The notes under the pieces were generated by a model. The model saw only the letters and a program-made list of their open reading frames with translations. It did no database searches and was not told the DNA's origin. Below are positions 8,894 to 31,111 of a stretch of DNA of 64,000 bases, one piece after another (position 1 is the stretch's first letter; each line of letters opens with the position of its first letter). The stretch is from contig JACGCN010000005.1 in the NCBI GenBank assembly GCA_014905825.1, positions 558,001 through 622,000 on the forward strand, read 5' to 3'. The stretch comes from Lyophyllum atratum (Eukaryota > Basidiomycota > Agaricomycetes > Agaricales > Lyophyllaceae). Made by a program: the position numbers and the translations under genes.

Positions 8894-9258
8894 GAGTCAC
8901 TATGCTGTCACCAGGGACATATCGACGATCCCGTGTCAATGTTTTAGTGTTCGCCATGTGGAGACGTTGTCTACGGTCACGAACGGATCCAGAATCCCAG
9001 CTTATTCGACACTTCCGCCCTGCCATTGTCCGTGTACTACGGCGCCACGATCTGCGAATCTTCATACATACATTTCATCGTATCAATTTGCCGCATGAAA
9101 GCGTATGTTTTCCTTCTTTATCAGCAGGACTATAGAGGGGACAATGGGTCATATGGGAACGCCTGTCCTTCGACGGCTTCTACGCACATTTCCTTTTTGC
9201 CATTGGCGCGCCTTTAAAAAGACCCAGGAGGCTGTGGTTATGCAACGGCTGACTCGCA

Positions 9259-11437
9259 ATGCGTCTTGGAAGCTATTCATCTGCTTGCACGGCAGCCTTC
9301 GTTCTCTCGTTATTGCCGGGAGGGCTGAGCGTCGACCTGCCCGTAAAAAACACCTCCGTAGTCCTCACAACCCGTGCTACCCCAGCTGGCTCGTGTATAT
9401 CCGCCCCGGATGACTCGTGTACGACCCTCACAGGAATTTGTATTGGTAAAGTCTTGAACGGACAGGTTGGTAGTAGAAATTGCATACATACCTGCATAAT
9501 TAACGATACGATTTCCAGGTCGCTGCGAACAATCTCTGGTCTTCCCCCGAGTGCTTTTCAGCTGCTTTCTGTACTGGAGTAAGGATATTCTTCTTTGTAT
9601 AAAGAAACAGAAACTCAGCTAGACTTTTTACATTTGATAGGTTGGTCCGATCCTCGATGCACTCTGTTGTGCTGGCTCGTGTGAACAGCCCTCTTCCATT
9701 AACAGCATTGACTACACCAAGGTATGTGCGATGTGGTACGGGGATTTTTGATGCTAACGAAACACCTTAGATATATGCAGCCATCGTCGGAAACTGCGCT
9801 TTTGCGGCTGGTGGATGTTCGTTAACTTGGAGTAAGCATCACTGTTATCCTATCAAATAGGGCTAGCTGCTTATTGGTTTGCACTCAGCACCTTTTGTAA
9901 ACTGGTTTTACAACACAATCCAAGCTACGGGTACCAATAGTTGGCCCCAGTAAGTGTACTTTGCTCGATGATCGGACATGTCCCTGACATCTGACTCAGA
10001 GATGGAGATTCCGTTCTCGATTGGTGGAGTAAGGTCGCAACGTGGACAAACGTAAGTGCTGCGTATACGTTTGCCGTTATAGCTAAGTAATTAATTCATT
10101 CTTTCTAGTTCTGCACAGGTGATCTCTGCGTCGACGGCGCTATCCCATATGTCAATCTCAATGATTGGACACACTTCTCTGGCGCTCCGATCGTGACCAC
10201 TCCCGGGACTCCTGGAACGAACGACCCGCAATATCTGTTTGGAGACATCGAGGACGATGTCTGGATCGTTACGCAGAATGACCCTTGCCCTTCGGATAAC
10301 GCAACTGACTGTTCTTACGACCATGGTCCACCTTCGAAGGTTGTGAACGGTCAAGTGGTTCCTGATGGCCCCGGGCAATTCGCGCGATCCATAGATACCG
10401 AAACCGCTTCGTTCCAGTCGAAACGAAAACGAGCCTTGGGTAGCTTTGGGCCTGCGATTTTAGGACTAGAAGGGTTCACTAGTTCCTCTCATCGCCCTTT
10501 GACGTCCATCGGTCCCCAGGGAAAGAATTGTCCTCCGCCTGTATTCATTGACGACGGTCGTGTCCCTGTGCCGCTCAATATCACTGGGTGCGAACAACTT
10601 GCGATAGTGTCAACTCTCAATAAATCTGTCCCGTCGTCGGTGTCGCTCACTCGCCCCGGCGATGTGACCCCTCTGAATCTGACTATGCCTCCATTCAACG
10701 ACCTGGCTACCTTAATTACCCCTGACCAATGTCAAGGAAGCACGGATACTCCAGTCCCTCTCCCTATTCTTACTTACTACTGCGACCGCCTCCCATTTAT
10801 CTGTGCCAATATCCGCGCCACTGGTCTCTTGAGCAACGATCAGATGATTCTCACCTACGATCCTTTCAATGGGAAGACGAGGCGAAACGGTGTTTGTGGG
10901 CTTGCCGTCAGGGAGGCCATGCAACAGGCGGGCAAGTGTGACAAACGCCAACACAATCCCGATTATTGGCTGGTATGCATGTCTCTGACGCAGTGTCGCA
11001 GATCACAAGCATTGATAGAACCTATCTAGATGTCATGCGATGAATTCCCTTTCAATATGGTACTCGAAGGTGGTGCAGGGAATGCTCAAGTTCGAGCAGT
11101 TCCCACTCGCGAACAGCAGTACCAGGGATCTCTTAACGCTATGATCAGCCAACTAATTCGCCTCAATGGAGATAAGACCACCAAGTGGGCCGGCCCGACG
11201 GGGAAGATGTGTCACGCCTTTATTCTACACCTGAGTGACACTCGACCCGCTGGACTGGTAGTAAAGGCTGTCGGCCAACTCGCGCGCGGCGGCGCCTTCT
11301 GGGCCGACAGAACGAACATTACCCCGACTCGGATCATCACGGATTCCAGAGCTAGCACGCCGGCGCCAGCAAGATATCCTGCTGACATTGCTTACATCAG
11401 CAAATTCACAGATTTCTGGCCGGCTTTTTCCTGGTGA
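9259..11437 (+). CDS. secreted protein with NucA/NucB-type DNase motif
   Basis: Starts at 9259 with a clear signal peptide (about 25 residues, hydrophobic core AAFVLSLLPGGL). Small exons follow, rich in Cys and Trp: VAANNLWSSPECFSAAF, CCAGSCEQPSSINSIDYTK, IYAAIVGNCAFAAGGCSLTW, APFVNWFYNTIQATG. A long exon comes next (about 10110-10974), then a 57-bp intron, then the last exon 11030-11437. The last exon opens with MSCDEFPFNMVLEGG. A Cys-Asp-Glu-aromatic-Pro-Phe core followed by Glu-Gly-Gly is the hallmark of the NucA/NucB secreted deoxyribonuclease family, so an extracellular DNase is likely. Frame is continuous and codons look normal. The end is abrupt: the stop at 11435-11437 lies inside a short repeat that may belong to an inserted element, so the natural C-terminus may have been displaced (see the piece at 23076). 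Confidence 0.7.
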
Positions 11438-11474
11438 CCAGCTCACCAGTTGCGACAACCTATGACCAGCTCAC
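11435..11474 (+). repeat. 12-bp direct repeat at left edge of the mobile block
   Basis: TGACCAGCTCAC occurs at 11435-11446 and again at 11463-11474. The first copy overlaps a near-palindrome, CTGGTGACCAGCTCACCAG, at 11431-11449. The position between the DNase stop and the Plavaka stop makes it a candidate transposon end or subterminal repeat. I found no matching copy near 23.1 kb. Confidence 0.4.
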
Positions 11475-11522
11475 TAGCCCACAAGGTCTTTCATAGAAAT
11501 AGATAATTTTATCATTTAATAT

Positions 11523-14500
11523 TTATGTATGGATATCTACTTGAGTTATAAATTCATGCGCGTGATGGTCAACATAGCTGTTTATAAAATAAGCACGAAA
11601 GGCATCCAGTGCCTGCGAAAAATGAAAATCCTGGGGAAGGGAATGGGAACCGAAAACAGGAAGAAGATGAGCACCTCGAGCAATGGAATCCAGGTGAACG
11701 ACGGCAAGACTACGTCGGCCCCCTGCCTCGTATTCTGGCCTGACCATCCAGAGGCCTGTCTCAGCATCAGGGGAATCACCAACCAACACCAGCCAGTTAA
11801 CTAATGCACATGGGTAGTATATGCCTTCGAAGGAAAAAGAAAAGAAAAGGAGAACACGGCCAATGGTCATGCCAAGCATGCCCCGAGCATTTGAATCGGT
11901 TTCGACGAACACGGTGTCAAAACGCGGGTACGCACCACGCCAGCTTGGATTGGCACGGATGCGTTCCTGTCGCATCCCGCCCGCACCACAGATGTCGCTT
12001 GGTGAATAGAACCGGGCCACGGCTGAGTGATAAACAGCGATCCGCCCATGAAACTGGGGGCAATTCTCGAGCAAAACGTCGTGCGGGGCTACATGAGAGT
12101 CAGGGTGGATTTGTTCATGGAGAAAACGCCGTAGAGCTTCGGCGAATCGGGGTTGCTGGATGTGTCGTGCAAGATCCTCCATGTTCTTGGGATAGTTACG
12201 TTCTATAGTCGGTCAGACATCAGTTCATGGTCGTGGTGGCTAGACGGCTGTACCTGGAGTTGCAGCCAACTTAACTGATGACATCACCTTCGGTCCTGAA
12301 GCAGGCCCCAAGTCGTCATCATTGTGGAGCTCGTCATCATCCCGATCACTGAGCCTAGGCCCGGGTACGCCTCCCGCATCGAGGAAAGCAGCATATGACG
12401 ATGTTGACCCAGTCATCATGCCTTGAGAAGAAAAGATGCTCCGTGCAGCACCGAGCTTGTTAAGCCGACAAAGTGTGCGAAGCATCTGTATAAGCGCGTT
12501 GAATCGATTGGAGCGCCGCCATGGCTCCTTCACGGCTTGGATGTGTTTGGATTCCGTGATTGATGAGCATAGGCCATTGGGCGACCCAAATAACCGGATA
12601 GAGCGGGGATAATGGACCATGGCGTGTTGGCGGGGTAGGGAAATGTCGGCGTGTACTCCGGTTTGAATAAAGATAGAACGGTGGTGGTGAAAGCGAGCGA
12701 GGGATGCTTCAAGTTGTTTGATGTCTTGATTTGCGAGTGAGTTGCGGCGTGCGATGTAGCAGAAGTCGAGAAAAGCGGACATGGCCTGAACCATCTGCGG
12801 AGGTACGTGCCCAGTGATGGCCGCAAGATAGACCTGGATGACTATGTTTAAGACCGTGTAATGCTATGAAAGTGAGGAAGGAATACCTTCATTAGAGCTT
12901 TGGAATCATCTCCGGTCCATTGAGAGAAGTTTCGGCCATCTGGGAAACGGCGCAGACCAGGAAATGCAGGAACAGCGGAGATTCTAGAAAACCATCAGCT
13001 TCGGAGAAAACAAGGTACCGAATACACGTACCGCCGGTCTATATCCTGAATAATTCTATTTGCTGCCGTCTCTCCGTGTGTCTCGACAAGGTAATCACCA
13101 ACCCATGTTACTAGGTGGTCTTTGAACGTCCCTTTGATGATTTGATGTAGGAGGTCTGGGGACAGAAGTTCGTGAATGTCGGCCCGTGGGAAGTGGTAGG
13201 TGAAAGGCTGGATGAAACCATTGTCAACGAACCTTCGAATCAATTCAGGTCAGGAACGCATACCAGAATGTCACTTCGTATACCATAGTCAGACCAGAGC
13301 ACTCCTGGATCAAAACATGATATCATGAATTCAGTTTTCTTGTGTGAACGTCGGAGGGCTTCAGGGTTATCAAGGTTGTTCGGGTGTGCATCGCATCTAT
13401 GAACACGTTAGCCAGATGTGCCTTGGCAGATCTCGAGAACAGGACTCACTTTGGGCACCAATCCTGGACAATGCCTGCCAGCCAAACTTGTTCTGGGTAG
13501 TCTGCGATGTACGGACCAAGCCCATAGATGGCGCGGCGATAATGACCATCAGGGCAGCGTACAACCTCAGGTGTTGTCATACCTACCTTAAGGGGTTCGA
13601 AAACAAGAGCCAAGCAAGCATGGTACAGCTGACGAGTAAAACCGTTGGTAGAGCACGGAGTTCTGCTCTGCTGAGCTCACTATGACGTTGTGTCAGCGTA
13701 ATGGAATGTTCTCGCATGGCATATTAGGCTCACCTTTTGGAATTGGAAGGAAGGCGACGGGAAGAACAGCATTACCCCGAGCACGACGTGCAATGTTTGT
13801 CAAACCACCGGGAGATATGTAAAGTGGATGGTATTGCTGATGCCCCGTAGCTACCGACACTGTGGTTTTGTCACTCCCAGCAATGATCGGAACGAACATC
13901 GCTCCGTGGGTATCAGGTAATTTTGATATCTCGTCCTATTGACGGAGATGATCAGTTAGAAAAAAATGCTGGGAAGGAACTCACACGCACACATTGTTTC
14001 CAAGTCCAACTAGCAGACATGAGTGTTGACCAGATTCGTTCGCCTTTCAGATTGAATTGTTGATATGGTCCATAGTGAATCGAGCCGTCGAAATCGGCCG
14101 TCGCAAGTTGCTGATGTGTCACCTCACGCGAATTGCGCGTGCAAAGCTCGTACTCTTTGGTCATCCACCGAGGTGGATTGTGTTCTGGGATAGGGCCCTG
14201 ATACCGAACTTTGAGCGTCTTCCAAGGGGCTTCTCCGTGCTGAATTTTGTCGATGGTTCGGTACATTTCCTCGGTGTTCTTCCATGGGACAGTTCCGCCT
14301 AGCGGGAGGACACTAGCAAGCCAGATGTCGAGAGCAGTATTGATATTTGCTTCGGAGTCTTGCAACTGGACGAAATGGAAGTTGGCGAAATCGAAGGCGG
14401 TGCGGTCCTGGAATGGCTCCCAGCCTTGAATCACTGGTTTTGGTGGTTGGGCGGAGTGCGGAGGAAGGAATTCGCCGTTGGCATCGCATGGTTTGCCTGA

Positions 14501-14723
14501 AGATAAGCTTTAGTGGCACGGAGGTGGATATGTAATAGAGACGCCTACCGGTGATCCATGGATGTCGGATATATGTGAACTGTTCACCTGCGTCTTCATC
14601 TCCGTCGTCTGTTGGAGGTTGGGACAGTTCACGATGCATGCTGTTGACGTGCTGGGTCCGTCCGCTATGACTTCGGAATTTGCGGAGGCATTGCGGGCAA
14701 GAAATTGAACCAGACGATGTCAT
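11523..14723 (-). CDS. Plavaka-type DNA transposase
   Basis: Nine or so exons (about 940 residues) read in frame from ATG at 14723 to the stop at 11523. The N-terminus carries a C2H2 zinc finger (CPQCLRKFRSHSGRTQHVNSMH). Next come WEPFQDRTAFDFANFHFVQL, DEISKLPDTHGAMFVPIIAG, the block TGHQQYHPLYISPGGL, CPDGHYRRAIYGLGPYIADY, PEQVWLAGIVQDWCPKCDAH, PFTYHFPRADIHELLSPDLL, ITGHVPPQMVQAMSAFLDF, and the C-terminal FYSPSDICGAGGM and FEGIYYPCALVNWL. These are the conserved blocks I associate with the fungal Plavaka transposases. Every junction inspected has GT...AG ends, which argues for a young, possibly active copy. It is divergent from the DUF6532 gene, with only about 158 bp between the start codons. 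Terminal inverted repeats were not found by eye. Confidence 0.82.
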
Positions 14724-14881
14724 CGTGATTCTCGATGATACGGGAGCAGGGAGATTCGGGACTTGGCAAAAAAACGGAACTGTTCTCACGTGAGGGAAAA
14801 AGCCACCCAAAACCTTATTTGCACTAGGGTCAGAGACCACACAACAAGAGGCCGCGCCTTACGATGGTCGAAACCTAACCC
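14724..14881. promoter_or_regulatory. shared bidirectional promoter, Plavaka / DUF6532
   Basis: The 158 bp between two divergent start codons must hold both promoters and both 5' leaders. It contains CACGTGAG near 14787, an E-box-like hexamer. No classical TATA box stands out in either direction. Confidence 0.5.
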
Positions 14882-17800
14882 ATGGCACCAAGAAAACCTC
14901 CTAAAAATCGAAACCCGGTCGCACCGCCAACAAATGACCCTGCTGGCGAGGACATTCCCCCCGAGGAAGGACCCAAGAAGCGTTCTCGGGCCAATACTAG
15001 AAGCAGTGAAACGGTGGATCAGCCGAAGACGAAAAGAGGGCGAAAGGTGACGTTGACTCACGGTATTGGGATACAACGCTGATGTCAAGCAAAATCAGAA
15101 TCAGCTATACCCGGAAGATGCTGTCGAAGATCCTGATGGAGACGCCGTGGACGACCCTGACACGGATTTTGTTGAGAACCCTCAGACCGTAAACCAAAAA
15201 AAGGTACGTAAATTTATTTAACTTATTCTCCAGCCGCATATTCATGCACATGTAGGCTGTTGAGGCCCGAGCGCCGCTTCCAGAACGTGTAAATAGAGTC
15301 CAAAATCCCGGGCTCGTTGATCAGAAAACAGGACGAAGGACGTCTGCTCAGGTTATCAAGGAAGATAAGAAACGAGATGCCCTGGAGCAAGAGATTGCAA
15401 GGCTGAAAGCAGAAAAGATGGAACTCCTGGCTCAGATGGAAATCAACCAGCAACGTGAGGAAGAGGAAGAGAAAAAAATGCTCGTCACAAACCTCGCCGA
15501 AGCCAGAGCAGCGCTTTGTGGTGATTCCGAGGTCGAGCCTGGTGAGGTGGGCGAGCACGACGAAGGGAGTGGCAGGGCGAGAAAGAAAGGACAGACTGTA
15601 TGACAAAGTTCAGACTTTTGTGAATTGCTGAACGGGACACTTACATGTTCACTTAGCGACGGAAGAAACCTGAGCGAGGGGAGACTCGAGGCGCCGTTGA
15701 GGTGTTGAAAGTCGAGATGAAAAATCAACAGAAAGCCCAGAGTAGCGTCAACCTGAGGTAGGCTTCGTTGACACGGGACACGGCCGATTTGGCGGGGACC
15801 GCTTAGTCAGGCGTGTCCTGGGACACGGCGGCGGTTCCGAAGATCACATGACCACCACCTGACGCGTCGCGTCCCCAGAAACCGCGTCTCACCGCCCGGC
15901 GCCGTGACTGTGACCGGAGGGAAAGGGGCGAGGGGATCGTGTGCATTCGTTCGTGTCGTAGCCTAACCCTAGTGTAACATATAGAATATATTTATCCTCT
16001 CCTTAAGGTCCTCTGAAGGTCCTCCGACTTGCTCTGCTGGCTTGACAAGAATGGCTGCTGTTCCGAACAACAGCTCGATCGTACACCGTAGACGTTAGCG
16101 AGCACACACAAAATATATTTCGCTGGGAACATTTCTGGCATTTGAAACCTTGCCGTTCCGCACTGCTCGTCGACGGTCATCTGCGCGCGGACCAACCAAC
16201 CCGCCATCTTGACTGCTGACCTATACCGGGGACATATTTTCATATACTCTACATTGTCGCGCAAATGGCCTCCGTGTCTGAAGACCCCTCAGTCCCGGAA
16301 GACATCACCGTGAATGCGATCTTGAATGCAAAGGTTGAGACACTGAGATGGTGGATCACACGCGTTAACAACACGGCAAAGGCATGCGGCGAGAAGAAGA
16401 ATCCACTTACCAAGGTCGGGAATGCAGCGGCCCTAAAGGAGAAGCTTGCAGCATACTATGGGCTCAAGCTTGATGTTGCTATTGTCCCAGTAACCGAGAA
16501 AAAGAAGGAGAATACAGACTTGCTCGCGCCGGCAATCCGTGCAAGGCAGTGGGGGCATCTTCGAGAGCTTGGCAAAGAGTGGAGTGCATGTGCTTCGAGG
16601 AACGAGAACTTCCAACTTTGTGAGCAAGGTGAGTCTGTTACGGCACAATGCAGATAAGTACGAGATACTCACCTTGTTCGGTTTTGGCTTGTATAAGATG
16701 TGGGATTAGGCGCGTCATTCATAAATCATGACTTGCAGCATGATATCCAAGAGCTACTGAAAGAGATCCGAGTCATTCGGGGTGGCAGCAGATCTGCTCG
16801 TCCACCTGCTGACAATTCGGCGGAGACTATCTGTGCATGGGTGGCGGCAGGAAGGGAGGGTGATGTCGAGGCGCTCTCTCACCTTTTCCAGCTCCAGAGC
16901 TCAATTGGCAGCACACCGTTGAAAGCTGACCCCGTTCCTCTGAATGAGGTGTCCAAGCGTCCTGAGGTATGTTGATTGGTATTTAACAGACCAATGTGCT
17001 CACGATCCTGACAGGTCTACCTGGCGTCGTCGTCGTTCTTGGCCTGTGATGTACCTGGGCAGACACTCGACTCCTCGCCGTTGTTTGCAAACCCAGCCAC
17101 GGTCGCTTTCCGAGCACAAGCACCAGCTCTTTTGAATTCTCGAGAGGCTGCGTTCTCCTCTGTCCAGGTCCTTGATCAAACGGCGCCTATCCCGACGCCA
17201 CTATCACTATCGCATATTCCAACCCAACAATCGCGTATTCCAACTCTACCATCACCGTTTGCAGTCCCTCGAAAGGTTGCGGTGCCAGTCCAGAATGCCC
17301 TTCAAGTTGCTACCGAAATCCTGTTATCGCGATCAGTAATCCCAGATCAGCCGAATCGGACATGTGATGGTGATATCCTTGCTGCGTGCTTGGCAAGAAT
17401 GAAGGCGTTGGAACAAGCAAATGGCTTGGAGGAGGTCATCAGCCAGGTAGAACGTGGAGAAGTCGCAAAGATGCGGGAGGAGTTTGGTCCAGAAGCTCGA
17501 AACAAGGGTGGGAAACCACAATGGCGGACACTCAAGGGCACGATCAACAAACGGGAGCGTATCTACAAGCAGCTCATTACAGAGTTCAGAGGTGACAAGG
17601 AAAGGTTCTTTACATTCTTTACCTTCGAGCAGGAGCCCCAGAAAGGAAAACGGAAGATCGACGAGGGTCACCGGCAACTGAGGTCGTCGAACAAGGTTGC
17701 AGAGGCAATCCCGCATCGTGATAAGGACTTGAAGGAAGAGAAAGAATCAACTGAATACTGGGATGCATCTGGTCGCTTTTCGCAACATCTATGGGACACG

Positions 17801-20800
17801 AAGTGGACAGGACTCAATAACTGGGAGATCTGGCGAGCACTTGCGAAGGAACAATACTAATAACAGGACTATTACGGACACTATAGTGTATCAGCAGATA
17901 ATTTACAGTACTCGACAATATATTGGAATCCTTCATTAATTAGAGAGGCGAGCACGTTTTGCATCATTGCGGTCGTACTCATCCATAAACTCATGATTGT
18001 CGTTTGGGGAATAGAAGTATCGAAACATGGTTATGGCCTCAACTTGTGACCAGCCACCCCATGCCGCAACCATATCAACCGTCCAGCCCTTGTTTTTGAT
18101 TCGATGTTGACAGCCACCGCGCCGGAAAGAATGGGTGCCGTAGAGTGCCCATGTAAGGTAACCGAGATTCTGGAGATCCTTCGAAAGCGCTCGGCTGAGG
18201 ATTCTGCTAGTCTGTAGGAGGAAATCAGATGATGTGGAAATGCGGGGTGTCGAACACGTACCACAGCTGCAGACTGCATGACAGCACCTGCAGCACTAAC
18301 TCGCAAGAACAGAGGGCCGGATAGCATGACGGTCTCGCCATATAGCACCGCTAGCCGGATCATTGTGCGAACAGGGCATATCTTCGTGTCGAAGTCGTTT
18401 GCATGCAGTTTCCACGTGTGCAGAACACCTGTCTGCGCCGTCTTCCGGGTTTCAAGAGACACGCATAGATATGAACCTAGAAAGGAAGGTATGACAATAT
18501 TTATAAGTTGACGGATATCGACTCACGTTCGCCGGGGATAATCTCAATGCTTTCGAACTTAAGGTTAATGACTTCGTCAATGCGTAGGAACATGAGCCAG
18601 CCTAGTAAATAAGCTGTCTGCAGGAAAATCAGTCTCTAAAGAATTGACAATATGGAGAACATACATAGCGAACGACACCCCAGCGTTGCTCCATGATTGA
18701 TTTCCCGTGAGGCGCCATGCATTCGTCATGGAGGCGGTGCATGTCATCCAACGTCAGAGCACGAGCTGACTGGGAGACCTCGCCGGATTTCGCCTTTGTT
18801 TTCTCGAGGCCGACCATGAACGTTGATACGACTCGAGATCTTGTCGGAAGCCCGGAGCTGTACATATAAGAACATTATCCAGTAGAAATATCCTACAAAC
18901 ATACCAGACACCCGTCTTCGACTCATTCCGCCATTCACTAACACTCTCGTCCGGTCGTATGGTCTTGTACCAAAATGTAAGGGCGGCGCGTGTAGAAATC
19001 GCTGTAGAAAACTGTGCAAAGGGAACGTTACAAGAGTGAAGTTATATATTTGCAAGGAGGTGCACCTTGCGCCCTTCAAATCCTGCTTCCTTGCTTCCAC
19101 ACTTCTGCGTAATGAAGTCGCGAATGTCATGCGGGGTCCTCCAATCGACACGAAGCGGATCCCAATTTGGGTCACGCCGTTTGCAGAATGTAATGAAATG
19201 CTTCGTGATCCTGAGGAAGGTATATGAGCACTGCGCAACACCATCGAAGTGTCTGAACAAACCGAATATGGCCATCGCGAGTTCCTTTCGTAATATGTGC
19301 CTGGGCGATGCGTGCCGCATACTCGGAGATTTCATCTTGCACGACATCTTCAGGAAAGTCATTTAAGGCATGATCGACCAACTCATCAAGATTTTCCTTG
19401 TCAACGGGGCAATCTTCCATGTCCAGCTTGACCGCTTCATCATCAGTGAGCTGGCAAACATGTGTCAAAATCTGATACCAGCACAACATGACGTGGTATG
19501 TAATCACACTGGATAGCTCAGAGTCATTATCCTCAGGAAAGGAGCTGTGCACAGTCATTGAGAGTACCGCGTACTTGTGGAGGCCAGAAAGAGGAGGAAG
19601 CGAAGGGGGAGGAAGCGCAGTGATGTGTCACGCGTGGCCTGCAGAAGATGTAGCCAAACAACTACATATATTGACACAAGGCTCACAGCACGCAGGTTGC
19701 TAGCAGACGCGACAGCACTGGACGTAGAGAATAGTAGGTGTCGGATGGACATGAGCTGGTATCACCGAGGCTTGTTCTCAGGTGCGTGGTGTGGTGACGT
19801 GGAGTTGCGCGAAGGTGATCGAGGGTTGTCCATAGTCCAGATGACCATGTTGGCCGAACGGACCGATCGAAGAGAAGGACAAGAGTTAAACAAACGAACG
19901 ATGTAAGCAAATGAAAAGAATGCAATGATTGAATGAAAAGAAATTAAAGTAATCGAACGAAGGGAGGGAAAGTGATTGAACAAAGAAAATAAAAGTAACC
20001 GAACGAAGGGAAGGAAAGTGATTGAACAAACAAAATAAAAGTAACCGAACAAAGAGAAGTAATCGAACGAAGGGAAGGAAAGTGATTGAACAAAGAAAAT
20101 AAAAGTAACCGAACGAAGAGAATGAACATAATAAATAAAGAGAACAGAAGTAAGCAAAGAAAACAAAAGTGACCGAACGAAGAAAAGAGAAATGTGCGCG
20201 GGCGGATGCAGGTGTTCGCTGCACCCCAACGCCGGGCCAACAATGTTCCCGAGGCTGACCACGATGACTTCTCCCGCCGCTCAAAATTTCATCGTCTCTC
20301 GCACGAGCACCACAGTTTAAAGCCCTATGCAAAAGCTATTACACGGCGACGCGATAATCATGGTAACAAGAATCTCACGGGCGGGATGGCAGAATTGGCA
20401 TTGACTGGAAAAGCCCAGATCAATGTGGAAGACGTTGAGAGTGTGCGGGCTGTGGTGGTCGGGCTGTGGCGGTCGGCAAGACGCGACGCCCGCGAACAAT
20501 GACAAAATCCTGCGAGGCAAAATTGATGTGGGCTGGGGGGCGTGAAAAATGAGCTGCAGACTATTCTCGATGGTTTAGCAACATACCTGTAGTCTGGTTC
20601 CACTATCAATCATCCTGATTGCAGTTTTCATGCCATCCTCAGCCCTGAAAGCGACGAAGTTCCCCCTGTGCATATATGTGGGTCAGGCATTGCCATTCCC
20701 AGGCAAACATCTTCCTACGCCAGCGGGGCCGCACCATACAGGGCTACCCAGGCATGACGTCGGGTTCGAGGAAAGGCGGCTGAGGGACATCGGCTGCGGT

Positions 20801-22928
20801 GGGGGACAGCGCGAGTCGAAGGAAATGGCAGAGGAGAGAGCATGAGTGAGGGAGAAGGGGAAGAGCGAGCTGCGCGTCCCTGAAAATTGACTGATCTGTT
20901 CACTGATCATATCAGTGATATGCCGAATGCGGCGGCGTGTCCTGGGATGGCCATTCCATCCAGTTGACCACAGGACACGCTGGGAGGGAGGTGCTCACCT
21001 AAAAAATGCGTGTCCCACATACTCATAAGTTGTGATAAATGCACCAGGACACGCCGAGTTGTGACGAACTGGGAGACTCAGGGTTCAGACGGGTGTGAAG
21101 GCAACGCGAAGGTGTCAACGAAGCGGCCTTGGCAGCCTGAGAGTGACAAAGTGCCTCCCTCTTCATGAAGACGTGAGAGACAGCTTGAGCATTGAACAGA
21201 TGTATATACACGATGAAATGAGCCTAATCACGGAGGGGATCGATGGGACGACGATGAGGATGGCGGCGACTGGACAAAGAAACAGCTCCCAAACGCCGCG
21301 CAGCGGTGTCCGGGGCCAGGGCAGCGCGTGATGGCTGCCCAAATGTAGGGTTAGGTGCACCGTTATGTCAGCGTGTCCTGCTCACATCTAAAGGTTGCTT
21401 CTATTCTCAGGGCACATGTGATCACAGGCGTCTAATTCTTTACAACTGGAAGCACACCCACACGAGCGCCGAATCCTAGACCCAAACACTTGACTGGTCT
21501 CGTTGTGGGTTGGACCCCTGGTGCAGTTCAACCAACCACCGCCGCCCCTCTCAAGTCCGACGCTCCTCCCCTCGGCGGCCTGAATGATGACGACATAGTT
21601 GCTGAGGGTCCAGATCTAGCCGAACCGTCCTCGGGACGGAAGCAATGGTCAAACGACGTGAACTTCCTCTTGATATTGACTTCACCATGAGAACTTACAA
21701 TTTTCCAAACTAGCTTGTTGTTGTTGTCTCGAGTGACACAGAATCTGACCATGCCGAGTTCAATGAAGCACCGTCAGACCTGGCAAGAACACCTATTTCC
21801 CGCGCTCCCACGAAAAAGCCGAAGACCACCGTGAGCACTCAAGTTGCGAGGTACAAGGCCACGCCAACCCCCGTGAAACGTGAAGAATCAGCAAATTCCG
21901 CCAATTCTCACCTATCATCCTCACCCGGGCCCGATACCGATAGTCGTCTTTTACCGGGATTCATCCAGTCGGAATGGCTACCCCGCTTCCTCCCCACCCT
22001 CTACCACTGCATTCTCTCAAACGATGACCCCTTCGAGAATTTCCTCGGTGGGAATGCCTTATATATGATACAATCCATTGTCAACATCGTCTTTCCGAGC
22101 AAGCCCGGTTATAAGGTTGCTTATCGGAGCCGGCTCTATGAGATGGTGCGTGTGCTTTTAATCCTTCATTCACATTCCACTGATATTGTTATCAGGCCTA
22201 CGAACGGGGCACAGATCTGCGAGCACGATTTGCCAGCCACGCGATCAAGATCGTCAAGAGATTCTTTGACCAATCCGAATACAAGAACAATCCGGACGCA
22301 GTCATCTGCTATGTACGATGGGCGATCCGTGAGGATGGGCCGATGCTTTTCAGGGTGCCAGTACCGGAATTTCCGCCGGAGGAGGGGACATCCAATACTA
22401 AGGTGTGTCACATCATCACTGCCGGCTGCTCAATTATCATTGACCCCGAGTTCTTTAATCCTTGCAGGCCCTCGATCCTTTCCAGTCCCCTTTCATAATC
22501 GAGCTCGTAACCCCAATCATCAAGTGCCTCCGAGGATCTGTCGGACACCACATGTTTGGGGAACCAAAAGCGGCATTTGCGCTCGCAGCTGCTGGGGTAC
22601 GTTCACATTCTATGTCTTGCTTAACCCACCTCGTTCTGAGATTGCTTGGCAGCTTGAACGCGCGTTTTTATGCTTCGAATCAGGAAAATTTCTCAAACCA
22701 ACGCAGACTTTCGGGAGTGAAGCCGTCGGGGATACTGTCAAGGAGTATATCGAAAGCCTCAACAATTTTACGGAGCGCCGTTGGAAACAAGTCAAGGCCG
22801 CTTGTGGAGTGGAAGGCGAGATGAAGCGAACCCCGGCGCCGGGTTCCTTATCACTCAACGGGAAGCGTCGAACGATTTACATTGCAAGCAGTCCTCCACC
22901 AGAAACTGTAGATTATTTCGAAAATTAA
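14882..22928 (+). CDS. DUF6532 protein, intact, interrupted by a 5.7-kb intron
   Basis: Nine exons: 14882-15046, 15099-15203, 15256-15597, 15657-15757, 21480-21657, 21714-22145, 22196-22402, 22468-22596, 22653-22928. They total 1,935 nt, that is 644 residues plus stop, with every phase matching. The N-terminal half is basic and disordered (MAPRKPPKNRNPVAPP) with a coiled coil in exon 3 (DALEQEIARLKAEKMELLAQ, about residues 115-150). The C-terminal half is the globular DUF6532 region (LPTLYHCILSNDDPFENFLG; FPSKPGYKVAYRSRLYEM; VGHHMFGEPKAAFALAAAG). Such genes are abundant in mushroom-forming fungi; function unknown. The nuclear-like basic N-terminus could suggest a DNA-associated role, which is inference. 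Intron 4 (15758-21479) contains a complete tyrosine-recombinase element. The exon 4/5 join (VNL-R-PKHLTGLVVGW) splits an Arg codon exactly, so the gene should still work if the intron is removed. Confidence 0.82.
15762..15774 (+). repeat. 13-bp inverted repeat, left arm
   Basis: GCTTCGTTGACAC here is the exact reverse complement of GTGTCAACGAAGC at 21112-21124. It begins four bases after the host splice donor. It could be part of the element's recombination site or a folding arm. Confidence 0.6.
15811..15820 (+). repeat. decamer GCGTGTCCTG, left copy
   Basis: Preceded by GTCAG and followed by GGACACGG, so the site is locally dyad-symmetric (GTGTCC..GGACAC). Other copies are at 20935, 20971 (reverse), 21045 (reverse) and 21371, with a variant at 21008. 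A likely protein-binding repeat of the element. Confidence 0.6.
16265..17860 (+). CDS. companion protein of the Crypton-like element, unknown function
   Basis: Three exons (16265-16628, 16698-16966, 17015-17860) sum to 1,479 nt, giving 492 residues. The N-terminus (about residues 15-75) is helical and basic (TLRWWITRVNNTAKACGEK, NAAALKEKLAAYYGL) and could be a SAP-like DNA-binding hairpin. The middle is Pro/Ser-rich and low in structure. The C-terminus is highly charged and ends in a Trp-rich block (YWDASGRFSQHLWDTKWTGL, then NNWEIWRALAKEQY). That block vaguely recalls the GCR1_C/Myb-like tail found in other Crypton recombinases, but the match is too weak to name. It is convergent with the recombinase gene, 75 bp apart. 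I do not recognise the family. A DNA-binding accessory factor for recombination is inference. Confidence 0.72.
17936..19558 (-). CDS. tyrosine recombinase (Crypton-like integrase)
   Basis: Seven exons: 19558-19263, 19210-19066, 19011-18905, 18857-18665, 18617-18527, 18476-18262, 18211-17936. They total 1,323 nt, giving 440 residues with all phases consistent. The N-terminal part is acidic, then resembles a core-binding domain (HITKGTRDGHIR, TKHFITFCKRRDPNWDPLRV). The catalytic domain keeps the expected tetrad: Arg about 259 in LMFLRIDEVINL, His about 376 and Arg about 379 in THSFRRGGCQ, and the Tyr nucleophile about 414-416 in MFRYFYSP. WGGWS takes the usual His/Trp position. It should cut and rejoin DNA through a phosphotyrosine link to move the element. 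All catalytic residues are present, so it may be active. The start at 19558 is the first Met of an acidic open exon; an additional upstream exon cannot be excluded. Confidence 0.85.
19943..20190. repeat. purine-rich minisatellite in the element
   Basis: About five degenerate units of roughly 46-64 bp built from AAAAGTAACCGAACGAAGG, a GAAGGAAAGTG piece and ATTGAACAAAGAAAAT. Purines dominate the plus strand, so the minus strand gives spurious Phe/Ser/Tyr-rich open frames. It sits just upstream of the recombinase start. Confidence 0.8.
20935..21054. repeat. cluster of GCGTGTCC decamers
   Basis: Exact copies at 20935-20944 (+), 20971-20980 (-) and 21045-21054 (-), plus a variant GCGTGTCCC at 21008-21016, in alternating orientation within 120 bp. 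Just upstream, 20901-20917 is a near-palindrome, CACTGATCATATCAGTG. Confidence 0.6.
21112..21124 (-). repeat. 13-bp inverted repeat, right arm
   Basis: GTGTCAACGAAGC, exact reverse complement of 15762-15774. It lies about 250 bp inside the rightmost GCGTGTCCTG copy. Confidence 0.6.
21371..21380 (+). repeat. decamer GCGTGTCCTG, right copy
   Basis: Preceded by TGTCA, much like the left copy at 15811 (GTCAG). Direct orientation relative to the left copy; about 100 bp before the host splice acceptor. Confidence 0.55.
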
Positions 22929-23075
22929 TAGTAGTTTATCTTATCTCACAATATACCTAAATTTGCAATGCACTTATCCTCCTGATGCTGCTTGTCGGGC
23001 TCGTCGTTGAAGAAACGAGTCTTCCGAAGGGCAACTTGTCCGAAATTTTGACGTGGATGGTCAGTCTAGTCGCTA

Positions 23076-24323
23076 GTGACCTATTGCCACTTGTACCGGC
23101 TCGTACAAGCCGGTACAAGCGACAACAAGCGGCCTGTGGGTTTACTGATGTATGGTGCTTCTGCGACTGCGATAAAGGTGTCCAATGGCGGTGTTTACAA
23201 TTGTGCACCCCAATGCTCTTCTCAGCCAGCTCCTACACCACGCGCAGTAGAGGGGAGAGCTGGGGACGAAATCGCTGCCTCATCAAGCTGTACTCGTACT
23301 TCGCGGCCAACTTCAAGTCCTTCGGCTACTAGTGCCGCTCAACAGCACGCTACATCTGCAGCGCAGCAGGCTTCTGCAGCGTCTTCGGCTTTAGCCTCAG
23401 CCTCGCCAGGATTGTCTCCGGAGCAAATCGCTGCTGCCGCCGCCGCCATTGCTGCCGCGAAGGCAATGGCAGATTCTGCTGCCGCATTGGTACGTCATTC
23501 AGGTTTTTCTGCTTATCCTGTTTCTCATTTTTCTTTTGCGCTTAGACAACAGCTGCATCAACCCCTGCGATTGCGTCTGCTATTACTGCTGTCAATGCTT
23601 GGATTAGTCAAGCACAGACGGCGGCAGACTTTTTCTCTAAGCTGGGTCCGAATCTACCGACATCCCTCTCGAACATCTTGGATATGGTAAGTCCTATAAG
23701 CCTTCCACCGCCGTAATCCTTTGCTAAGAGCCTGATAGCTGACGTCGTCATCCTCAGAGGCAGCCGACGCTGTTGATGACATGTCTGGTATTGTTCCCAC
23801 TACCGTTCCTATCACGCCGCCCGTCGACCCCGCTCGCGACCCTAATGTGAATACTGGTGGCAGCACTGGCGGCGCCGCCCCTCCCCCAGCCGCGTGCTTC
23901 GGTCCCGGATCTCAAGGAAACATTTTCGCTGGAAACGTAGGCCCCGCAGTAGATGGTAACGGCAACAGGATCGTAGCAACGATACTCGATGCAGGCAACC
24001 CAGCGTACTTTGGGATGTCCTTCAACTCGGTCGGAAACATCCACGTCACACCAATAGACGGCTGCGATAGCACGTATACGTGGAACACTGGCGCTCCGGG
24101 ACCGGGGTTCCAGGTGGATTGTAATTCGAAGGAGCTTGGGTCATATTGGAATGGAAGGAAATTGGGCTGTCAGATCTATCCGACCTCAACCAACGCAAAT
24201 GGTATCACAGCGTACGATATTCTTTGCTCCGACGATGTTTCACGAATTTTCGAATGTGCCTCGACGGCTGGTTATGACTTATCGAAGTTATCACCTACAG
24301 TATTCACTTGGTCACCTGTTTAA
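23076..24323 (+). CDS. orphan 3' gene part, perhaps the DNase C-terminal region
   Basis: Three exons (to about 23489, then 23546-23685, then about 23740-24323) join cleanly in frame. The first begins without a convincing start or signal peptide; coding looks real from about 23115 (SDNKRPVGLLMYGASATAIK, then VSNGGVYNCAPQC). A Ser/Ala/Thr-rich linker follows (ASPGLSPEQIAAAAAAIAAA), then a helix (VNAWISQAQTAADFFSKL). The Cys-containing C-terminal domain starts near GSTGGAAPPPAACFGPGS and ends FTWSPV at the stop 24321-24323. Composition and the extracellular style (paired Cys, Ser/Thr linker) match the truncated DNase gene at 9259, same strand, on the other side of the mobile block. It may be that gene's separated 3' part, or a decayed neighbour. 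No catalytic motif seen. Confidence 0.5.
23090..23119. repeat. perfect 12-bp-arm inverted repeat
   Basis: CTTGTACCGGCT at 23090-23101 and its exact reverse complement AGCCGGTACAAG at 23108-23119, with six bases between. It marks the right edge of the mobile block, where host-like coding resumes. It could be a transposon end remnant or an insertion target hairpin. Confidence 0.7.
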
Positions 24324-25335
24324 GTCTACGATGACTCCCACGTCTTCTCGTATACTCACCTTCTTGCTTGAGTTCCATGATATTGCCTTTCAAAGGACGA
24401 ATATGATCGAACGGTTCCTTCAGATGGTTTTGTTCCATGAACTTATTTCTCGACGCTGGATATTGCCTGCCACTGCCTTTCTACCGAACTCTCCCTACTT
24501 GGTCCTAGTATCCTGTGTGGTTGATAATTTCAATGACATTAGTCAACCGTTAGCCATGCGACCAACTTCAGCCCTTCAACGACTCGTTACACTTTAGACA
24601 GGTCTCGAGGATCAGACATGTCACCTGGATGTGATCCGACTCGGTCAAGAACCCTTCTGCTGACTTGATGAATGGTAGGAATTCTTTTCGGCAAAGTTCT
24701 CCAGAATACCTTACCAGATCCATTTGGATACAGGCAAAGTCGCATCGAGTAAGTAGGACGCCAAAGTACAGGTCCTCCTCTACAAGTACTCGGCTTGGTC
24801 GCCCCTCCAGTGAAGCCCCTATCAACACCCAGTTATTTTTAAACTCCTTCTCAATCTCGTTCTCACATCCAACACATCTGCATTTCTGACTACCAACGCG
24901 CACAGTTCACAAGTGCTGCAGATACTGCCCTTAGGCTGTACCCCACGCTGTCCAATGTGAGTGGGTTTTACATCTAGCTTGACTTTTCATCGATCATCGA
25001 CGACATTTCATCAGTTATTGTCCAATCGGGAGAGGACGGCATAACCTGCTCATACGCCACGGCGGGGTCTTGTGCCCAATGTCGTTGATGCCCCACCATT
25101 AACTGCGCTCAGAAACGTTCCCGTCCCGCCCCTTCTTCATCCCAGCTCGCCAAACTGCGTTACTCGGAGACTTGAGCCGACTGGAAATTAATTACTTGAC
25201 TCAGAAGGATGTATTAGTAATCAAGTGACAATTTTGCGTATGTAAGTCGTATTTCTATGCAGAAGCGCTATACTGATCTGCTTTTTCATCATTTACGACG
25301 CGAAGGTGTCCGTTGGCTCTTGTTCCCAAGCCACC
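24324..25335. other. intergenic region
   Basis: No gene supported. An open frame runs on past 24323 to 24597 in another phase and a minus-strand frame covers 24568-24903; neither has recognisable content. The last 100 bp presumably hold the MFS promoter. Confidence 0.5.
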
Positions 25336-27269
25336 ATGACCACCCAGGTTGACGAGGAGACTCCCCTGCTTCAGGCGCAGCCGCAGAAGAGGACTCCGCT
25401 TCCCTGGTTTCAGTTCTCCATCGTGCTGTTCCTACAGCTCGCGGAGCCTCTGACTTCGCAAGTCATATCCCCGTTCGCGCCTCAGGTACGTGTGGGTCAT
25501 CCATATTAGTCGGTCTCCTCACGAAATCTTGGCTTTAGCTCATACGAGACATTGGAATTACGCATGGAAACGAGAGTCAAGTTGGATATTATGTTGGGCT
25601 CATGGTGAGTGTTTATACATCCCCACCGGCGTCGCTGGTCTCATCTCCAATGGCCAGCAATCTCTTTTCTTCTTGACCCAAGCGTTTACGGTGTTGCACT
25701 GGAGTAGGGCGTCGGACATGGTTGGCCGCAAACCAGTCATCCTTGTCGGTTTATTTGGGCTGTCCGCTTCGATGTTCTGCTTTGGTCTGTCGAGAACATT
25801 TTGGGGCCTCGTACTCAGGTAAGTCTGCTGTGCGCTTCGAGCTACTCCGGGAAATTAACGGCGGGATGGCAGCCGGAGTCTCAATGGCGCTCTCAGTATG
25901 TGTTCACGCTTTGCCGCATATATGCTTCCATTAATCAGGAATGTCAGATGGAAATATTGGTGTGATCAAGAGGTCAGCCCTGTGATGGATCGTATTATCA
26001 TTGATATAGTTTCTGACACTATGCCATGAAGTATGATGGTTGAGCTGACGGACTCGACAAATATCGCGCAGGTGAGCCTCAATGGTTTCATTTTCAGTTA
26101 GTTGTTGACCATTACCTTGACCAGGCATATGCGTACATGCCTATCGCATGGTCCACTGGTGGCACTGTGATTATTATTCCTTTTCGAGTCACATATCATC
26201 CTTGACAGTGTATTGACAGCTTGGACCTATCATTGGTGGTTCTCTTTCACGACCAGCCGAACAGTACCCGCACTTGTTCGGAAACAACGAATTCCTCAAA
26301 AAGTATCCTTATTTCCTGCCCTGCGCAGTCCCCGCTACATATACCGCACTGGCATGGCTCGTCACCTTCCTGTTCCTCAAAGAAACCGTTAGCGCCCCCG
26401 TTTCGGTGTCGCGTCTACTAAAACTCGGAAAGGATAAAGATAGCTTGGCTTTGAAGGGTGCCATCGGATCCGAGGAGCCCCCAACTGTCGCGATCCCGGC
26501 CCTTCCTGCGCCTGATAAACAGCTGCCTCTGCGTGCTCTTCTTACTCCGCGAGTGATCATTGCAGCCGGGAACTATGCTTTCCTTTCGCTGGTGGACATC
26601 GCATTCCGAGCAATTCAACCTCTCTTCCTCTCGACTCCGATCGCCCTTGGAGGCCTTGGTTTGCCTCCATCTGCTATTGGAAATATCCTTTCTGTATTCG
26701 GAATCTCCAACGGCATAATCCAGGTGTTCTTTTTCGCGAGGATTCACGATTACTTTGGCTCGAAGAAGACTTTTATTGCGGGAATAGCGTCGGCCTTCCC
26801 GGCGTTTATTGCCTTCCCAATTATCAACTATTTGGCGAGGGCACAGGGTCTTAGTACGGCTGTCTGGGTCGCTGTCGGTCTACAAACTTTTATCTCAATT
26901 GGACTGAGTCTTTCATACGGTAGGTTGAATTATATGCAAATAACAGCCGTTGCTGACTTATTCACAGGGGCAATCTTCATATTTATCGCCGCAGCTGCGC
27001 CAAACCGCGCATCGCTCGGGGCAACGAACGGACTGAGTCAGGTGCGTTTGTACAAGCTTTGGCAATTATGATACTAAAGGAAGAGCCTTCGACAGATGAC
27101 TGTGAGCATCATGAGGGCAATTGGTCCCGCAGCGGCCAATTCTTTGTTCTCCCTTTCGATCGAAAAGGGTTACTTGAACGGATGGCTTGTCTATTACGTT
27201 CTTACTATGACGGTGGCTGTTGCGATGGCTGTAGCCTCAATGCTTCCGCGGAAGCTCTGGACTTCATGA
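25336..27269 (+). CDS. MFS transporter
   Basis: Intact MFS paralogue. The start at 25336 gives MTTQVDEETPLLQAQPQ, matching the paralogue at 6150. Blocks in order: WFQFSIVLFLQLAEPL, LIRDIGITHGNESQVGYYV, the helix 2-3 loop SDMVGRKPVILVGL, RSLNGALNGNIGVIK, SMMVELTDSTNIAQ, AYAYMPIAWSTGGT, GGSLSRPAEQYPHLFG, the long exon from about 26221 with LKETVSAPVSVSRLL and ALGGLGLPPSAIGNI, then APNRASLGATNGLSQ and MRAIGPAAANSLFSL. The stop is TGA at 27267-27269. Eleven or so exons, all GT...AG. Same family as the three genes at the left end, so the mobile block and DNase gene lie inside what looks like a once more compact transporter array. Confidence 0.87.
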
Positions 27270-27509
27270 AGTTCACTAGACATCATGGACACATAGAAAC
27301 TATAAACTTTACGAGCTACATAACAATGACAACGGAATTCATGACACGAGCAACTTGAGGCAAGGGAGCTGTGCGTGGCAAACATGACCAAATACAAATC
27401 CTGGATCCGTGTGGGCCACGATAGCGTTGTTCTTTACAATTGCAGGCCATTTGTGTTGACCACTCCCACCACCTTCCTCTTCTCGTCGTCTTGGCCACTC
27501 TATTCCAAC

Positions 27510-29068
27510 ATGACCACCTTCCAAGCCCTCATGGCGCTGAGCGAGACGCAAACGAGGCAATCTCAGAGCGCCGTTCAGACCGCGCTAGCTCAACGACAAC
27601 AGAAGGAAGAAATGCGGAGAAAACAGCTGGCGGAGCAGGACAGGAAGGAGCAGGCGTTGGCAAAGCAGCGCCGCCAGAAGATTTTTGATGACGAGAAGCG
27701 AGAACAGGAGCGGCAACAGAAATTGGAGCAGGAGCGGGCTGCCAGGGAGGCCGTGTTGCAGAAACGGGAAGAGGAGGCCCGCAACAATCTTCTCTATGGA
27801 CCCAAGAAGGCCAAAGCACGCTCTGCACCACCTGATGGTGCTTCTCCGAAGTGGCCCTCTTCCTCATCGCAGGCCCGCACCCGAGAGGACGTCCGCAAAC
27901 GCAGGGTTCCCGGTGAGGACGAAGATGACTCAGCGCCGGAGTTTCTCACTAGGGAGGAGAAACGAGAGCGCAAGCAGCAGATGGAGATGCGCAAGCTCTT
28001 CAACGCCTCGAAACGCACCTCTAATGCAGCGAGCTACTCCAAAGCTGGGAGACGGCTGCCGGGTGGCGCTGTTGACGTTCCGACGACATCGTCGATGGCT
28101 GATTCAGCTGGATCGTCGAAGTCGGTCAAGGAGCGGATAGCTGCTATGCCCAACACCTTGACCAAGCTCAACACGGTGAAGCGGGATACCCGCACAATCG
28201 ACGAGATCCTGCAGGATCGAGCGAAAGCAAAAGAGTTTAAGACTCTTGATGGTGACGAGGCGCGGGAGTTCAACGACTGGTTCGGAACGTCGAAAAAGAA
28301 GGAGGCAGTGAAGAAGTCGTCAGCTCAACCCAGTGTGTCCGCCGCCACTTCTGGTGCGAATACTCCTGCCTCCCGTAAGTTCTTCGTGCGACCTATCGCC
28401 TCGTGCACGTCTTACCTCCTTCGTCTTTAGAAGGCGGCAGTTCCACGCCCCACATGTCCGGTGCAGCTTCAAGGAAGGTGGCTCCACCTCAGAAGTCGTC
28501 GTTACTGAAGACTGCGGCAACCAAAGCCGCATATTCCATCTCTGCAGGTGCTAAGCCTGTTCCAGCTTTCCGACCTAGCCCCTCGGATAGGATTCACTCA
28601 TCCTCCAAGACAGCTCCTGGAAAGTCCTCTAAGGCCACCGCCAGTTCAAGCGCTGGAGGTGTTGGCAGATCGACCGGCTTTGCTGGCAAGAAGCGCCCCC
28701 GCTCTCTGAGCCCTTCTGATGACGAGTCCTTATCTCCCCCATCTCCCAAAAGACATAACAACTCGTCCGTCCTCGGTGATACCATCTGGAGGATGTTTGG
28801 CAGAGAGAGGAACAGCTACGTCAGCAAGGATGTCTTCAGTGACGACGAGGACATGGAAGCTGACGCCACCCTACTTGAACGGGAGGAGAAGATGAGGTTT
28901 GCTGGCTCCTTCTTCTTGTCATTCTATGACCGCTACTGACTAGATCCCGCCTTTAGTGCCCGTATTGCCAAGAAGGAAGATACAATTGCCCTCGAAGAAG
29001 AACGACGCCGCGAGGAGGAGAAACGCAGGCGCAAGAAGGAGAAGGATGCCCGCGAACGACGCAATTAA
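27510..29068 (+). CDS. SPT2: Spt2 chromatin protein (histone chaperone)
   Basis: Three exons (27510-28374, 28431-28896, 28957-29068) total 1,443 nt, giving 480 residues. The start at 27510 opens a long charged coiled coil (about residues 20-100: Gln/Glu/Lys/Arg runs). A disordered middle contains NTLTKLNTVKRDTRTIDEIL. The C-terminal Spt2 domain has STGFAGKKRPRSLSPSDDE, IWRMFGRERNSYVSKDVFSD (then DDEDMEAD) and a basic tail KRRRKKEKDARERRN. The Trp-Met-Phe ... Ser-Asp-Asp-Glu-Asp-Met block is the conserved Spt2 motif that binds histones H3-H4. Nuclear; expected to help recycle nucleosomes during transcription. Single-copy housekeeping gene by its look. Confidence 0.88.
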
Positions 29069-31111
29069 TGCTAACCCCTCACCCTCCTCATTTGGCTTTC
29101 TCGCGCCACCCATTCGACACAGAATACCCGGCTTCGCCGTGGCCCCATTTGACTTCACCTCTCGGATATCCCGCTATTGTCTCATTTTCATGCAAATCAC
29201 ACGGTTGGATGGACCTTTCTCATGGCACCCCCACACTATTCTCTGCACGCAACCGTCACATTGGAAATCATATAAATGGTCCATGTTCCACGTTACAGTT
29301 TCATAATCGTCCTATACATATAAGCTATTGCCCGTCGTCGTATGTCAAGTTGTAGACTCCCTGTACTGTTTCGCTTTTTGTACTCCGTTAAACCCTGTTT
29401 GGTCTGAACATGTTGTTAGTTCCCGTGGAACTTTGTAGAGAAACCTTTTCGGAGGTTAGATGCTATGTATAGAGTAGATGTTGCGTACACGCCCCAGTGT
29501 GGATGTTGTAATGAAAATGTAAAAACCCATTTAGACATCTGTACAATTGGCGGGGTCGTTTGAATCTGGACCTTGGACTACTCAACATACCTCCCTGGCC
29601 AGGAACGAAACACCACACACGCTTCCTCGAATCAACGTCATCGGCGAATGCTCAAAAGAAGCTCCGATGCTAAAATTGAGCGAGCTACTGACAAATGCCA
29701 AATGGACATGTCAAGAGAGTCCACTCGAGCGTCGAGAAAAGTCGAGAAAGCGTCACTGTCAAGGTTACGGTACGGTCTATGTCAAGCAATATCACCGGGC
29801 GACCGAACCGCGTCGCGTCGCTATAACGCAGGGTCGCTTCCTTCACTCACTGATGTTTTGTAAGTAGAACTAATCCCGAGCTAAGTGTATTCCCGACACC
29901 TTCGGAGAACACCCCGTCCTGGTCATGGTTTACGAACGTCCCATCACAAGCACAAGTGAGGTTCGTGAGCACATTAAGCTCAAGCGCGACCGTAGCCTAA
30001 CATTTTCTATAAAGAACCATCTATTCGTATCAGTCTGAAATGACAAGAACGAAGGCCAGATGTGGCGAAGTATCCATTGACTGGCTTGCGAGCAGCGATA
30101 GACATCATTCTGAAGTAACAAATCGAAGGCGCAGAAGGTCCAAAACGATTCACGAAGATTTGAAGTCGGACCTGGCCTTGAGAGATGCCAAAATGTTAAG
30201 ACGGTCCAGTAACTAGTCGACAGCGTTTGATTGGTCTCGAGACGGGGTATGGCTCAAATGACCTGACGAAAAGGAAACTCGCCCACTACCTGTCGCGCAA
30301 AGATGGCCCGGGCCCGGACCGTGACGACAACTTCAAGGCTTGCGGTGTTTGCCTTTATTTACGTTGTGGCTGCACGAGGCAAATCCAACCAAATTTGCCT
30401 CTATGCACCGTTAAACCGAGGTCCCGATTCAAACCACGAAGTCTGTCAGGAAAGGGGCGTATACTCCTCCGGATTCCATGGAAGTTGTAGAATAAAAGGG
30501 GGTGGATTCTTTCGAGAAAGTAAGTGGGTCGTTGGAGCTATGATTCGTACTAAACAGTGCCCTTTAGCCCCTAAACATAGTGAATGACGTCCTCGATGAG
30601 CCTCCCCTCAGATCGACGGAATTTTAGGTACAGTGGGTCAATACTTTATGTGGGCTATGTCTGAGGTGAAATATTTGGGCGATCGCAAGCAGTTCACGCA
30701 TCATGCGACCAAGACGCGACGGGAATTTTGCGTCGTAATCCGCTTTGCCGTTCTTGATCAAGTGAGTGAGTTGTAGCAATGGATATACGTTTAACTGAGA
30801 CATAAATCGAAGGACCTCCGTGCACTCTATAGTGGTCTGTGGCTACTTGCCATGACTTCGAGCCAATAATCGACCTTAATCTCAGCAGACCCCTCTTGAG
30901 GAGTGGTTCACTGCACATGATATACGGTGGCGACCCACCTGGTCATCCTCGACGCTCTGAACCCCTTTCCTACCTCTATAAAAGGGCCCTCTCGACATCG
31001 TTTCTTAGTATCTCAACATTTCCCAACCATCCTTTTACTTCATCGTACATTAACGACTTTCGCCGCAAAACATTCTCGCAAGTAACCAGCACCTGAACTC
31101 CAGACACAACC
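29069..31111. other. 2-kb intergenic region, promoter of the GGWN gene
   Basis: No gene recognised on either strand. The right end holds the core promoter of the next gene, with a TATAAAA box at 30977-30983. Confidence 0.5.
30977..30983 (+). promoter_or_regulatory. TATA box of the GGWN gene
   Basis: TATAAAA lies about 130 bp before the ATG at 31112. A canonical TATA suits a strongly regulated, secreted product. Confidence 0.6.

Follow-up and report, generated by a model that had tools for sequence, protein, structure and literature searches.

The window analysed is a stretch of 64,000 nucleotides from Lyophyllum atratum (C97:558001-622000), and all comparisons within the genome were made against the assembly of 64.76 Mb in 151 contigs. 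Genes were rebuilt from the DNA. The following features were found at the locus (positions are those of the window).

10109..11434, plus strand: host gene region with a NucA/NucB nuclease domain, disrupted by the PlavakaB insertion
11393..11394 and 23151-23152, no strand: left and right copies of the TA target duplication, single TA in C94
11395..23150, no strand: PlavakaB DNA transposon, 11,756 bp, recognized by the C94 empty allele, PF18759, ends and duplication
11395..11411, plus strand: left terminal inverted repeat, CATCAGCAAATTCACAG
11523..14723, minus strand: Plavaka transposase gene, nine-exon model obtained by splice search, 911 aa, open frame
14882..22928, plus strand: DUF6532 gene, nine exons, 647 aa plus stop, divergent from the transposase gene
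14882-15046, 15090-15203, 15256-15597, 15657-15757, plus strand: DUF6532 exons 1-4
15758..21479, plus strand: DUF6532 intron 4, 5,722 nt, holding the nested element
15762..21400, no strand: nested Crypton-like element, GCTT counted at both ends (5,635 bp with one GCTT)
15762..15765, plus strand: left GCTT core, the following C belonging to the element
16265..17860, plus strand: G2, second gene of the nested element, three exons, 488 aa, open
17936..19558, minus strand: tyrosine recombinase gene, seven exons, 440 aa, open
20923..21057, plus strand: subterminal stretch, 72-74% to relatives of ~666 bp
21397..21400, plus strand: right GCTT core, the following C assigned to the target from the empty alleles of two relatives
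21480-21657, 21714-22145, 22196-22402, 22468-22596, 22653-22928, plus strand: DUF6532 exons 5-9
23134..23150, minus strand: right terminal inverted repeat, reverse complement CATCAGTAAACCCACAG, 14/17 match to the left repeat

Contig C94 acts as the other haplotype at this locus, with 95-97% identity. By contig comparison, C94:100802-102996 corresponds to window positions 9210-11394 (97%) and C94:102995-109360 to 23151-29480 (95%); the two matches abut end to end and share a TA overlap of 2 bp. None of the segment 11395-23150 is present at the corresponding place, and C94 joins 11394 to 23151 as a clean empty site. The C94 allele of the DNase_NucA_NucB gene (C94:102635-103531) is open across the insertion site, and its domain was matched at 1.9e-8. 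The inserted segment starts with CATCAGCAAATTCACAG and ends with CTGTGGGTTTACTGATG, which match as inverted repeats at 14 of 17 positions with the termini CATCAG..CTGATG. In Pfam, the N-terminal half of the transposase matched PF18759 at 1.1e-84. PlavakaB transposons (CMCT clade) are described with the termini CATCA..TGATG and target duplications of 2-3 bp in the accessible part of PMC12730594. The element in the window has the PF18759 transposase, the CATCA..TGATG termini and a 2-bp (TA) duplication, all in common with that description; it differs by the divergent DUF6532 gene, absent from the accessible part of the same source, and by the nested recombinase element. Without the latter, the copy would measure ~6,121 bp. 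A copy on C64 (134391-143847) has ends 94-95% to those of the window PlavakaB, but encloses another pair of Plavaka and DUF6532 genes; its target duplication could not be matched. C64 was unusable for defining an empty site of the nested insertion, since its matches to the window are confined to 11395-12223 and 21777-23150, with the other gene pair between them.

The region 15758-21479 reads as intron 4 of the DUF6532 gene, as an earlier sequence-only reading of this DNA had proposed. That reading gave 645 codons in phase and other introns of about 50-65 bp; the joined frame is indeed open, with a count of 647 plus stop, and the remaining seven introns are short, measuring 43-65 nt. Some splice-site choices in the gene model are ambiguous, e.g. 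the exon 1/2 acceptor. Joining of exons 4 and 5 restores one arginine codon (AG at the end of exon 4, A at the start of exon 5), just as had been claimed. The joined protein matched Pfam PF20149 (DUF6532) at 4.1e-6. In a protein search that scored only the 7,991 candidates with the most words in common with the query, 6 proteins were returned, one of which is the deposited model from the window itself. Alignments to two full-length relatives, P0121 (707 aa, Lyophyllum shimeji) and P0122 (631 aa, Sphagnurus paluster), run without a break over the exon 4/5 join (RPKHLTGL / RPRHLSGL), so the two halves, whose unity had been named as one point on which the earlier proposal might fail, were one gene. 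In a fold comparison with the PDB using a model of P0121 (mean pLDDT 53.8, low confidence except for a helical core), none of the 107 listed matches (up to E 10) reached E <=0.001.

Two paralogues of the gene, on C90 and C67, carry an intron of 66 and 68 nt, respectively, at the identical position and phase (AG|A, then P-D-H-L), which bears out the proposal that a Crypton-like element had entered a pre-existing short intron. The nested insertion begins four bases past the end of exon 4. Subtraction of the nested unit leaves an intron of 87 nt, GTAGGCTTC followed by 21402-21479, as the predicted state before insertion. GCTTC is present at both junctions, so that the insertion left the first nine bases of the intron, 5' splice site included, unchanged; the 3' part of the intron is intact as well. 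With the splice sites kept in the sequence, removal of the 5.7-kb intron would be possible.

The ends of the nested element were determined from relatives of ~666 bp on C65, C63 and C108, which contain in this order the left end (15762-15829), the stretch 20923-21057, and the right end (21371-21401). Since these relatives have the same two ends, the nested element was delimited to 15762-21400; the positions 15758..21479, formerly given for the element, are the bounds of the intron. In all five rows with host DNA beside the left end (window, C119, C2, C65, C63), GCTT is followed by C or A and then by GTTGACA. Right ends read AAAGGTT or AAAGATT, followed by GCTT in five of seven rows and by GCAT in C119 and C2. 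The copies on C119 and C2 appear to be allelic. A search of the assembly with the right-end pattern (up to 2 mismatches) gave 12 matches versus 1 for the reversed control, with those on C71, C85, and C102 being doubtful. The nested element is without terminal inverted repeats and has the short direct repeat GCTT at both ends. A 13-bp inverted repeat (15762-15774 and 21112-21124) was rejected as a pair of terminal inverted repeats, its right arm being internal, 276 bp inside the right end.

Empty alleles were found for two of the relatives. C1:4379753-4380037 corresponds to the joined flanks of the C65 copy over all 285 positions (98%), and C86:1546638-1546901 to those of the C63 copy (85%). 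The latter allele is 22 bases shorter, a deficit of one host repeat unit that is present twice in the filled C63 allele. Both empty alleles hold a single GCTT (C1 ..GACGC-GCTT-AAAAGCC..; C86 ..TTTCC-GCTT-CATAGCC..). In each, the next base is the same as on the right of the filled site; hence, the fifth base is derived from the element on the left and from the target on the right. This pattern would be expected for a circle with one GCTT recombining with a target GCTT, and the single GCTT of the empty alleles is what integration of the Crypton type would predict. On C105, a right end is joined to the left end of a second unit via one GCTT. For the window's own nested insertion no empty allele was found, C94 being without the entire PlavakaB. 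No second copy of the nested recombinase gene was found in the assembly; mobility was therefore deduced from the relatives, which have only the ends and the 135-bp stretch (72-74%) in common with the nested element.

The recombinase gene had been described as intact with an R-H-R-Y tetrad, and the open protein carries R259, H376, R379 and Y414. In an alignment of 27 sequences including the one from the window, H376, R379 and Y414 are invariant and R259 falls into the class of at least 90%. Among 4,074 candidates, 123 related proteins were found at E <=0.001; of the matches listed, the best had 65% over 85% and one from L. shimeji 77% over 68%, and the organisms named among them are mushroom-forming fungi. 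The recombinase is Cre-like: a profile of the 27 sequences matched 17 sequences in the PDB, all of them Cre or its variant Tre (best 1.2e-5), and the predicted structure of the relative P0001 resembles Cre at E 6.3e-8 (a model of the relative, not of the window protein, with mean pLDDT 69.9). In Pfam, the recombinase of the window matched only a SAM-like integrase domain, at 0.015 and below its cut-off; Phage_integrase was matched by 6 of the 27 sequences. Starship captains are defined by the DUF3435 domain, which was not among the Pfam matches of the window recombinase or of the 27 recombinases. A reverse transcriptase, as in DIRS and Ngaro elements, was not among the Pfam matches of the recombinase or of G2, and these two genes account for the translated stretches of their regions.

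The second intact gene reported in the intron was likewise recovered as G2. No Pfam domain was matched by G2 up to E 10. Relatives of G2 were found in few mushroom species: of 7,994 candidates scored, 6 were returned, one of them the model from the window itself. The relative from L. shimeji (P0128) is joined to a retrotransposon protein. P0128 and the L. shimeji recombinase P0011 are located on contigs that are both 31,983 bases long; therefore, the two genes probably travel together there too. At C61:78850-88619, a DUF6532 match has two stretches similar to G2 (42%) within 10 kb, and no recombinase match was found there; these stretches are perhaps a second, decayed case.

Cryptons encode a tyrosine recombinase, lack terminal inverted repeats and have direct repeats of 4 or 6 bp at their ends, according to the accessible part of PMC3212892. 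The nested element has in common with them the tyrosine recombinase, the lack of terminal inverted repeats and the short terminal direct repeats, and no gene for a reverse transcriptase or DDE transposase was detected in it. It differs by the six introns of its recombinase gene and by a second gene on the opposite strand, to which no function is assigned. Neither the recombinase nor G2 matched GCR1_C in Pfam up to E 10, and none of the 27 recombinases did so up to E 0.01; due to the absence of this domain the nested element is not a standard CryptonF. MarCry-1_FO, as described in the accessible part of PMC3212892, is a Crypton fused to a transposon with terminal inverted repeats that makes TA duplications, and is present in several near-identical copies. 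Both systems combine a Crypton with a transposon of this type; MarCry-1_FO is a fused composite, whereas the window holds a single nested intron insertion, and no second copy of the combination of a Crypton-like element and PlavakaB was found in the assembly. A literature search for Cryptons in Agaricomycetes yielded nothing related.

To analyse the association of DUF6532 with Plavaka, both Pfam profiles were run against the assembly, giving 20 matches in 12 clusters for DUF6532 and 73 matches in 38 clusters for Plavaka. A divergent Plavaka match lies within 5 kb (at 1.6 to 3.1 kb) of 10 of the 12 DUF6532 clusters; the exceptions are C61 (Plavaka 17.3 kb off, also divergent) and C119 (240 kb off). 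The nominal chance of this pairing is 3e-27, which is not a real probability because the copies are related, with three near-identical ones on C141 and similar ones on C103 and C73. Four further DUF6532 loci were missed by the profile and found by protein search (C97 in the window, C67, C90, C86), all in divergent pairs with Plavaka. The copy on C86 (539513-545653) is compact, with both genes within 6,141 bp between CATCAG repeats and a TG duplication. For C90 and C67, the stretches examined showed no convincing Plavaka termini. At 24 of the 38 Plavaka clusters, many of them with weak or partial matches, no DUF6532 partner was detected. In the literature searched, which comprised few subscription papers, DUF6532 was named only in a list of domains, in the accessible part of PMC8955403, and Plavaka is named in the same list. 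We read the DUF6532 gene not as an ordinary host gene but as one of the two genes of a PlavakaB transposon, and its product may aid Plavaka transposition.

In the preferred reading, to which we assign a probability of roughly 0.85, a Crypton-like element lies in an intron of a DUF6532 gene that is itself the second gene of a PlavakaB transposon, i.e., a transposon in a transposon. The tyrosine recombinase encoded by the two-gene Crypton-like element would have integrated it at a GCTT of the short DUF6532 intron. The GCTT of a circular intermediate, with the expected junction AAAGGTT-GCTT-C-GTTGACAC, would recombine with the target GCTT, and neither the 5' splice site GTAGGCTTC nor the intron's 3' end would be altered by this recombination. 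Tolerance of the insertion presumably reflects the interruption of a transposon gene, rather than the rescue of a host gene by splicing.

The sequence-only reading had regarded the interrupted gene as a host gene whose survival explains this tolerance, with the element persisting because the intron is spliced out. The nine-exon open frame, the kept splice sites and the short homologous introns of two paralogues would suit such a gene; however, it is located between terminal inverted repeats with a TA duplication, segment 11395-23150 including the gene is missing from the allelic haplotype C94, where an ordinary host gene should be present, and the DUF6532 relatives in this genome pair with Plavaka genes. 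We consider this explanation very improbable. It is also unlikely, if less so, that the nested element was moved by a GCTT-preferring DDE transposase making 4-bp duplications, with the recombinase as a passenger. GCTT on both sides of filled sites and a single GCTT in empty ones would also be the outcome of a 4-bp target duplication. Target duplications of DDE transposases normally differ between sites, whereas GCTT recurs at sites of the nested type; moreover, the ends are not inverted repeats, and the genes of the element encode a Cre-like recombinase and a protein without Pfam match.

A further explanation concerns the transcript: DUF6532 exons 1-4 might be spliced to G2 to encode a fusion protein, the long intron being removed whole rarely or never. 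G2 and DUF6532 are on the same strand, and the deposited L. atratum model P0123 (FPV67DRAFT_1447145, 731 aa) is exactly such a fusion, running from the exon 4 donor to an acceptor in the nested element and on to G2, of which it covers 99% at 100% identity. However, P0123 may be an automatic gene model, and exon 3 is trimmed in it too; we regard this fusion as possible but doubtful. In extension of the transposon-in-transposon reading, we tentatively propose, at somewhat less than even odds, that DUF6532 is a partner protein in PlavakaB transposition and that the nested element belongs to a so far unnamed group of two-gene Crypton-like elements in mushrooms, whose recombinase uses a GCTT core and whose insertion in an intron spares the splice sites and possibly fuses proteins of two transposons.

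This reading corrects the view that the element shelters in a host gene, the interrupted gene being itself mobile; since a haplotype without that gene is moreover present in the same assembly, the case says little on such sheltering. Of wider interest are the pairing of DUF6532 with Plavaka and the precise definition of the ends and core of a mushroom recombinase element. Should the pairing be borne out in other species, the genes counted as the mushroom-specific DUF6532 family, which is annotated without function, would be transposon genes, gene-family counts would change, and DUF6532 would gain a testable role. From the empty alleles, the ends of a group of recombinase elements with 123 protein relatives can be placed exactly, together with a 4-bp core.

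Relatives of the nested element are present in tandem, inverted and snap-back arrangements on C105 (about 1294-1989) and C108 (1204-2496), and C105 terminates in a piece of ~60 bp with the left end present in both orientations. Within the nested element, positions 19892-20190 of the window form a minisatellite-like array of ~23-bp units. Also within it, 86 bp at 20219-20304 resemble stretches on C57 (91%) and C112 (89%) and are unrelated to the common ends.
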